Of a DNA stretch of 64,000 nucleotides, positions 45,847 through 46,556 are shown piece after piece. Origin of the DNA: Flavivirga eckloniae. Its GTDB lineage: Bacteria > Bacteroidota > Bacteroidia > Flavobacteriales > Flavobacteriaceae. The DNA lies in NCBI RefSeq assembly GCF_002886045.1, contig NZ_CP025791.1:620001-684000 (forward strand), read 5' to 3'. Both the position numbers and the translations under genes were made by a program. How positions within the stretch are numbered: position 1 is the first letter of the stretch; each line of letters starts with the position of its first letter. The notes beneath the pieces are model-generated. The model was not told the origin of the DNA and did not search any database. It saw nothing but the letters and a program-made list of their open reading frames with translations.

Positions 45847-46452
45847 ATGTATTTCTATATGGGATTAGATTCTGTAGAATTAATAATGTCTGTAGAAGAT
45901 AAATTTGGAATTAGAATCCCGGATGCTGAATGTGAACAGATTTATACTGTCCAAGATTTTGCAGATACGGTTTATAAAATAATTTCAGTTAATCCTACTG
46001 ACAAATGTTTAACTCAAATCATTTTTTACCGAATTAGAAGAGCATTCCAGAATTTGAATTTTACCAACAAGGAAATAATGTCCAATACCAAGATATCGGA
46101 CTTGTTGTCTCAATTGGAATTAAAAGAAAGTTGGAATCTATTAGAAACTGAACTTAGACTTAAATTACCTGAATTAGTTACTCTTGACTTTAATCCGAAT
46201 TTAGATTCTCATTTAAAATTTTTAGGCTTTCGGACTATTAAAAGAACACTACCTGTAACAAAAGGAACAATAAGACAATTAATTGATTGGACAATATCTC
46301 TGAATTTCGAAAATACAATTGACATTCAAAAGATTACTAACAAATATGAGGTTGAAAGAATTATTTCTGGAATAATAAGTGAGAATATGGGAATTCCGAT
46401 AAGTGAAATTGAATTAAGACACTCAATTACAAACGATTTAGGAATTGACTAA
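45847..46452 (+). CDS. Acyl-carrier-protein-like protein with permuted halves
   Basis: 201 residues (or 197 from ATG 45859, MGLDSVEL). The N-terminus begins at the phosphopantetheine site: GLDSVELIMSVEDKFGIRIPDAE ... TVQDFADTVYKII, i.e. helix II to IV of an ACP, with S9 as the attachment serine. The C-terminus VERIISGIISENMG ... SITNDLGID is helix I and the loop that normally precedes that serine, and the gene stops there. The middle (about 65-165) contains IIFYRIRRAFQNLNF and is not an ACP. No helix I is encoded upstream (stop codons in frame). Similar orphan proteins occur in Bacteroidota; function is unknown. It stands alone. Confidence 0.75.
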   Translation: MYFYMGLDSVELIMSVEDKFGIRIPDAECEQIYTVQDFADTVYKIISVNPTDKCLTQIIFYRIRRAFQNLNFTNKEIMSNTKISDLLSQLELKESWNLLETELRLKLPELVTLDFNPNLDSHLKFLGFRTIKRTLPVTKGTIRQLIDWTISLNFENTIDIQKITNKYEVERIISGIISENMGIPISEIELRHSITNDLGID

Positions 46453-46556
46453 ATAAAACATTACAACACAAGTAATTGTTGATCAAAACCCTAAAAAAAT
46501 CTTAACTCAAAAGATCACTTTTAAGGAGTTTTGAAATCTAATAGTACAACAAAAAG

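Follow-up and report, generated by a model that had tools for sequence, protein, structure and literature searches.

Type II acyl carrier protein (ACP), represented by AcpP and by the families PF00550, TIGR00517, and NF002148, is the closest described counterpart of the protein reported here. In the canonical order, helix I, loop I, and helices II-IV are found in one chain, and the phosphopantetheine serine (Ser36) lies in a DSL motif at the start of helix II. Glu41 and Glu47 of ACP are contacts for partner proteins. We know of no natural circular permutant of ACP, and a search of the open-access literature returned, among the matches listed, none on circularly permuted ACPs or carrier proteins or on serine-less ACPs.

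In this work, we describe a gene for an ACP-like protein in a window of the Flavivirga eckloniae genome (the whole stretch of 64,000 nucleotides that was analyzed). This protein and its close homologs resemble type II ACP in carrying DLGxD, LDxVEL, E41, E47, F50 (replaced by Y in one of 17 permuted proteins), I54, and T64 at matching columns, and in the four helices predicted for a short form of the protein. They are unlike type II ACP in that the chain order is rotated, with the chain ends at the Asp35-Ser36 bond and a Gly in the place of the serine. Furthermore, the long form has an additional domain, predicted to be a degenerate ACP, and scores fall below the cut-offs of the NCBIfam ACP models matched.

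Gene structure and translation start

The open reading frame called initially occupies positions 45847-46452 of the window on the forward strand (201 aa) and starts from an additional in-frame ATG. Homologs place the conserved start at the second ATG (45859), such that the gene spans 45859..46452 (+) and encodes 197 aa followed by TAA. An ATG at MGLD is found in all 17 intact copies (15 long and two mini, see below), and in 15 of these no other in-frame start codon (ATG, GTG, or TTG) lies between it and the upstream stop. A possible earlier start is found in the window copy (ATG four codons upstream) and in L008 (TTG two codons upstream).

From 45859, the F. eckloniae protein reads MGLDSVEL to DLGID and is immediately followed by the stop. 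The DLGID codons (46435..46449, +), which correspond to ACP residues 31-35, have the TAA (46450..46452, +) directly 3′, and this stop codon occupies the place of the Ser36 codon in ACP genes. All 17 intact MGLD-type proteins end in DLG-x-D with zero residues beyond, and the stop codon is TAA in 16 copies and TGA in L012. A search of the host genome (5.67 Mb, one contig) found the window copy and two short matches (E = 0.008 and 0.056), whose reading frames (79 and 83 aa) resemble ordinary ACP-like genes. No obvious ACP partners were identified among the neighbors of the gene in the window.

Permuted order of the ACP segments

A profile of ordinary ACPs was built from 36 sequences and run against 25 permuted proteins. 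In the window protein, the N-terminal part (residues 1-47; 45859..45999, +) aligns with ACP helices II, III, and IV (profile columns 39-74; E. coli ACP residues 37-72 onward), and the C-terminal tail (residues 158-197; 46330..46449, +) aligns with helix I, loop I, and DLGID (profile columns 4-37; 21.8 bits). The same was found in all 16 MGLD-type proteins profiled: the N-part is aligned starting at column 39 and the tail over columns 4-37 up to the last residue, which leaves column 38, the serine of DSL, as the sole column between the two matches. L072 is likewise in permuted order, and the count of 17 of 17 includes it by extrapolation. The profile alignments of both ends to ordinary ACPs are gap-free as printed. 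Thus, instead of the canonical order, these chains have helices II-IV and then helix I, and no segment is lost or doubled, as expected of a circular permutation: the tail runs to column 37, Met-Gly stands in between, and the N-part continues from column 39.

Shuffled sequences were used to gauge the tail scores. None of 400 shuffles of the window protein's tail reached its score, and the maximum among 10,000 shuffled tails of the 25 proteins (9,346 of which gave any alignment) was 11.2 bits, compared with 14-25 bits for the real tails of 17 of the 25 permuted proteins. Three distant relatives have weak tails, with scores reached by 2/400 (L070), 36/400 (L031), and 65/400 (L069) of their own shuffles. 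In a comparison with PDB sequences, positions 3-38 of a profile of the permuted proteins align with residues 37-72 of 1acp_A (E. coli ACP). By sequence, the protein would belong to the ACP fold, as the ACP profile matches both halves. PF00550 is matched above its gathering score of 20.8 by P0001 (28.8 bits) and P0002 (34.0 bits), with the N-part as the best stretch. The NCBIfam ACP equivalog models are matched below their curated cut-offs by P0001 (44.8 against 70.45 bits, and 53.2 against 71 bits) and likewise by the mini protein L072 (60.3 and 61.7 bits).

A previous sequence-only reading of this DNA had proposed that the protein begins with helices II-IV and ends with helix I and DLGID. The open reading frame and the ordinary-ACP profile bear this out, and joint conservation of the two ends, which had been named as a check, holds in all 17 intact copies of the MGLD type. 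On these alignments, the permuted order is real and conserved.

Replacement of the carrier serine

The residues around the carrier site were compared in a column table of 17 permuted proteins and 34 of the 36 ordinary ACPs; L024 and L025 were omitted because of a one-residue deletion. At position 36, all 17 permuted proteins have Gly (window codon 45862..45864, +), whereas all 34 ordinary ACPs have Ser. D31, L32, G33, D35, L37, D38, V40, E41, and E47 are identical in 17/17 permuted and 34/34 ordinary proteins, and L42 is found in 17/17 and 33/34, respectively. The register is also given by the PDB comparison, in which residues 37-72 of 1acp_A align with positions 3-38, such that residue 2, the Gly, falls at Ser36. 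The alignment thus points to a loss of the phosphopantetheine serine that characterizes a carrier at the start of helix II.

The serine of GLDS (45871..45873, +) had been read earlier as the carrier serine. As a candidate carrier site it was rejected, since it is three residues out of register and equivalent to Thr39 of E. coli ACP. The phosphopantetheine serine that the sequence-only reading had placed at S9 (201-aa numbering; residue 5 when counted from 45859) is therefore misassigned, and the intact phosphopantetheine site that it had seen at the N-terminus has Gly in place of the serine. With the carrier serine replaced, a test for 4′-phosphopantetheine attachment to S9 would be expected to be negative.

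Middle domain and predicted structure

Residues 48-157 (46000..46329, +) are predicted to form a second, degenerate ACP-like fold, according to a model alignment and a weak profile match. In the structural alignment, model residues 46-158 align with ACPs or presumed ACP subunits in the first 16 rows, with Z scores of 4.5-6.6 that are middling by the aligner's own note. The small chains among these rows, from respiratory complex I and one mitoribosome entry, are taken by us to be ACP subunits; one of them, 8e73_AB, is named as ACP in the PDB sequence search. The profile comparison between the middle domain and ACP is weak (P = 42%, E = 2.6e-4), and no serine is evident by eye at the carrier position of this domain. 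These roughly 100 residues had been described as "other residues" and a possible inserted linker; the prediction favors a degenerate ACP-like domain instead.

Both the long and the mini form are predicted to be compact monomers. For the window protein, the best AlphaFold2 (AF2) monomer model has a pLDDT of 87.9 and a pTM of 0.86 (22 sequences), and the five models range from 87.9 down to 76.9 in pLDDT. The best monomer model of the mini form has a pLDDT of 87.4 and a pTM of 0.78 (17 sequences) and contains four helices. In the long model, helices are found at residues 3-16, 22-25, and 31-41 of the N-part and at residues 162-177 of the tail. In the long model, DSSP assigns isolated bridges to residues 30, 78, 137, and 189, and in the mini model to residues 3, 30, 80, and 87. 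Since mini residue 80 corresponds to long residue 189, the simplest pairing appears to be 30 with 189 in the long form and 30 with 80 and 3 with 87 in the mini form, which would join both ends. Packing of the tail on the N-terminal helices had been named as a check of the permutation, and in the predicted monomers the DSSP strings appear to bridge the two.

Foldseek gave no match at E <= 0.001 for either the long or the mini model; the top local match of the mini model is 3ejb_A, an ACP chain (38 columns, 50% identity, E = 0.71). A sequential aligner matched almost all of the mini model to ACPs (about 68 residues) with Z scores up to 5.7, mostly at 6-9% identity and at most at 16% among the ACP rows. 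This alignment is apparently in a non-homologous register and is thus no proof of permutation. Furthermore, AF2 may impose a learned ACP fold on these models.

Homologs and mini forms

Relatives were searched for in Bacteroidota genomes, plasmids, phages, and viral contigs, and close relatives in one genome-contig scan. Among 397 genomes of the same family, 13 matches were found at E <= 1e-5, namely, 10 long permuted proteins (including that of the window), the mini protein L014, a 235-aa relative (L013), and an ordinary ACP (L015). The pattern-seeded scan of genome contigs gave 10 loci, seven of which are long permuted proteins (two taken as already counted) and three ordinary ACPs. In total, there are 15 distinct long proteins, all from Flavobacteriaceae; each starts with MGLDS and ends with DLG[IV]D, and identity to the window protein is 46-81% among the other 14. 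A Persicobacter plasmid has one more copy (L026, 5998-6577), which runs from MGLDTVAL to DLGID and has a frameshift within its middle domain.

The mini forms L014 (1363-1629) and L072 (1498-1764) are 88 aa in length and lack the middle domain, such that the two ACP ends are joined by a short linker alone. L072 is 53% identical to L014 and is from another species of the same genus with similar neighboring genes, presumably RNase R-like and YbjQ-like. Of the 23 genomes of this genus, two have the mini gene and the other 21 gave no match. The mini proteins fall among the MGLD proteins of an unrooted tree and group with L010, L011, and L012 (support 0.940). Given this placement inside the MGLD group, a loss of the middle domain most likely gave rise to the mini form.

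The pattern ATGGGNYTNGAYWSNGTNGMNYTN has one match in each of the 12 genomes known to carry the gene and three matches in 395 genomes of the order, one of which (G1038) codes for MGFDWVA. In another search, 101 of 395 genomes matched. Thirty of these were read as loci: two gave MGLD-type proteins, six gave relatives of 235 aa, and 21 of the other 22 gave an ordinary ACP. For the remaining 71 genomes, G552 proved on reading to have a 235-aa relative and the other 70 were judged to be ordinary ACPs by coverage alone. No unpermuted relative with the middle domain was found among the proteins read, and the eight 235-aa reading frames read from one search are all in permuted order. The phages searched had no match to the permuted protein, none of the 38 pattern stretches in viral contigs is a relative, and the two proteins compared with a defense-system library had no match there.

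Distant relatives of about 235 amino acids

Longer relatives of about 235 aa are found in other Bacteroidota (L013, L029, L030, L031, L033, L035, L036, L096, and L108) and, among Alphaproteobacteria, on plasmids of Sphingobium (L069) and Phaeobacter (L070, two records). WP_123618753.1, annotated as "hypothetical protein" in Phaeobacter, is one of them. The Phaeobacter protein is colinear with L029 (97% of the query, 24% identity, E = 5e-8), and for the Sphingobium protein BLAST matched the N-part and the middle alone. These relatives are similar to the MGLD type in their permuted order and related middle domain: in all 11 aligned, the chain opens with helix II-IV sequence and closes with sequence resembling helix I, the C-terminal match being weak in L031, L069, and L070. 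By eye, 10 of the 11 have FYxLR in the middle domain, and L070 has YYRLN. They differ from the MGLD type in a hydrophobic, probably membrane-spanning stretch of the middle domain (judged by eye) and in a tail that mostly stops before DLG. An unrooted tree splits the 235-aa group from the rest with a support of 0.997.

In most of these relatives, the tail is shorter by about six columns and the N-terminus takes in earlier positions of the same loop, such that the DLG-side residues are carried on the opposite chain end. At the serine column, the 11 relatives have P (5), S (1), R (1), E (1), D (1), G (1), and nothing (1), as read by gap-free extrapolation. In L031 (1456-2124), the carrier column still has a Ser (VDSEDIEDLL). 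L029 (1120-1809) ends with DDLHID with the serine deleted and, as in the window protein, is cut at the serine. Two cut points in one loop with nothing lost or doubled are predicted by closure of the ends into one domain.

No neighboring genes were seen by eye to be common to the 235-aa relatives across families. In G757 and G598, which are from one genus, the 235-aa gene adjoins the same large, presumably carbamoyl-phosphate-synthase-like gene and the same small secreted-looking gene. In two genomes of one genus (L091 and L095), a 235-aa relative directly adjoins a 938-aa gene that is presumably carbamoyl-phosphate-synthase-like.

Selection and mobility

Among the 13 gap-free long copies (78 pairs), pN/pS is 0.23 for the tail, 0.34 for the N-part, and 0.37 for the middle domain. 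Among the 19 close pairs listed, dN/dS is 0.07-0.17 in 18, and L016/L017 have no amino-acid change. Judged from these substitution ratios, the gene is under purifying selection.

In eight of the 17 copies, all from Flavobacteriaceae (L004, L006, L007, L016, L017, L019, L021, and L022), the gene is a single gene between inverted arms of 9-10 bases, GTTGTAAAAC and GTTTTACAAC or close variants. One copy has a matching change in both arms (GTTGGCAAAC and GTTTGCCAAC). Two copies have the upstream arm alone, one the downstream arm alone, and six, including the window copy, neither. The inverted arms sit, by eye, within longer attC-like repeats. In the window, ataaaacattacaacacaagtaattgttgatc (46453-46484), 3′ of the stop, resembles a degenerate attC-like arm by eye, and the pattern test did not count it.

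With a single gene between attC-like arms in eight of 17 copies, these loci may be akin to integron gene cassettes, and in part of its distribution the gene has the appearance of a mobile cassette holding a single gene. Unlike what is expected of integron cassettes, none of the 13 genomes searched has an integron integrase that scores above the TIGR02249 cut-off, and the window copy has neither arm. Sub-threshold tyrosine recombinases were found in all 13 searched genomes and also in 13 of 14 controls. The best recombinase matches (e.g., L097, L098, and L099) have both ends of the IntI profile and lack the stretch of about residues 180-238.

Discussion

Our observations are probably best explained by a naturally circularly permuted, serine-less pseudo-ACP with a closed fold, which may dock on an ACP-recognizing partner. 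Helices II-IV and the C-terminal helix I with DLGxD would fold together as a single ACP domain in which the two termini come together at the Asp35-Ser36 bond. The second, degenerate ACP domain would be looped in between the two halves and could be lost to give the mini form. As the Gly that follows the initiator Met stands in for Ser36, the protein most likely carries no phosphopantetheine arm. The pseudo-ACP would dock on a protein that recognizes the helix II surface of ACP and may act as a decoy, adaptor, or regulator; the retention of DLGxD, LDxVEL, and Glu47 makes docking the most plausible role. Taken alone, docking and regulation are a tentative if serious possibility, with residue conservation as the evidence for them. 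The natural circular permutation put forward in the sequence-only reading is supported by the co-conserved ends, by monomer models that appear to bridge the ends, and by the mini form, which joins just these two ends.

The same sequence evidence would fit chain ends that complement each other between molecules, as domain-swapped head-to-tail dimers or filaments rather than a closed monomer, and the middle domain could hold apart the ends of one long chain. However, a loop of about ten residues is all that separates the halves of the mini form (between helices 31-43 and 53-68), this form is predicted to be a compact monomer, and the best model of the long form reaches the pTM of 0.86 given above (monomers alone were predicted), such that we consider an intermolecular closure unlikely. 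A different role for the ends is a little less likely still: the α-amine of the Gly, exposed when Met is removed and placed at the site of the Ser36 hydroxyl next to the carboxylate of the C-terminal Asp, could be acylated, ligated, or joined head-to-tail. Met-Gly is a usual substrate of methionine aminopeptidase, all 17 proteins have the same terminal residues and the same end positions (with a possible earlier start in two copies), and the other residues of the carrier-site loop are kept. In this case, the α-amine framed by the DLGxD/LDxVEL loop would itself accept an acyl group or another group, or would be joined to the C-terminal Asp; permutation would then let the chain ends replace the prosthetic-group site, and Gly-Asp joining would make a circular protein. 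Most 235-aa relatives argue against it, as their ends are elsewhere in the loop and mostly they also have no serine, and we hold the proposal to be improbable.

Two other explanations have still less in their favor. A working carrier modified on the conserved Ser/Thr of GLD[S/T]VEL is very unlikely: this position is indeed always S (15 long copies) or T (both mini forms), but it is the equivalent of Thr39, which is itself T in 33 of 34 ordinary ACPs, and profile positions 3-38 are in register with E. coli ACP residues 37-72. A functionless remnant, with the leftover halves of a tandem ACP array, might be suggested by the frameshifted plasmid copy and by the sporadic occurrence (10 long copies and one mini among 397 family genomes). 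It is hardly compatible with the dN/dS of 0.07-0.17 in close pairs that differ in protein sequence or with the exact ends and intact frames of 17 of 17 copies, and we consider it extremely unlikely.

The circularly permuted pseudo-ACP would represent a variant of the ACP fold that, to our knowledge, was not previously described: it lacks the serine required of a carrier, and its place in the fold is indicated by sequence and by structure prediction. ACP is among the most studied small folds. The cut lies at the one bond that is crucial to the carrier chemistry, while the flanking residues stay invariant. With the mini form, the role of ACP-like proteins without a prosthetic group would become directly testable in a protein of 88 residues.
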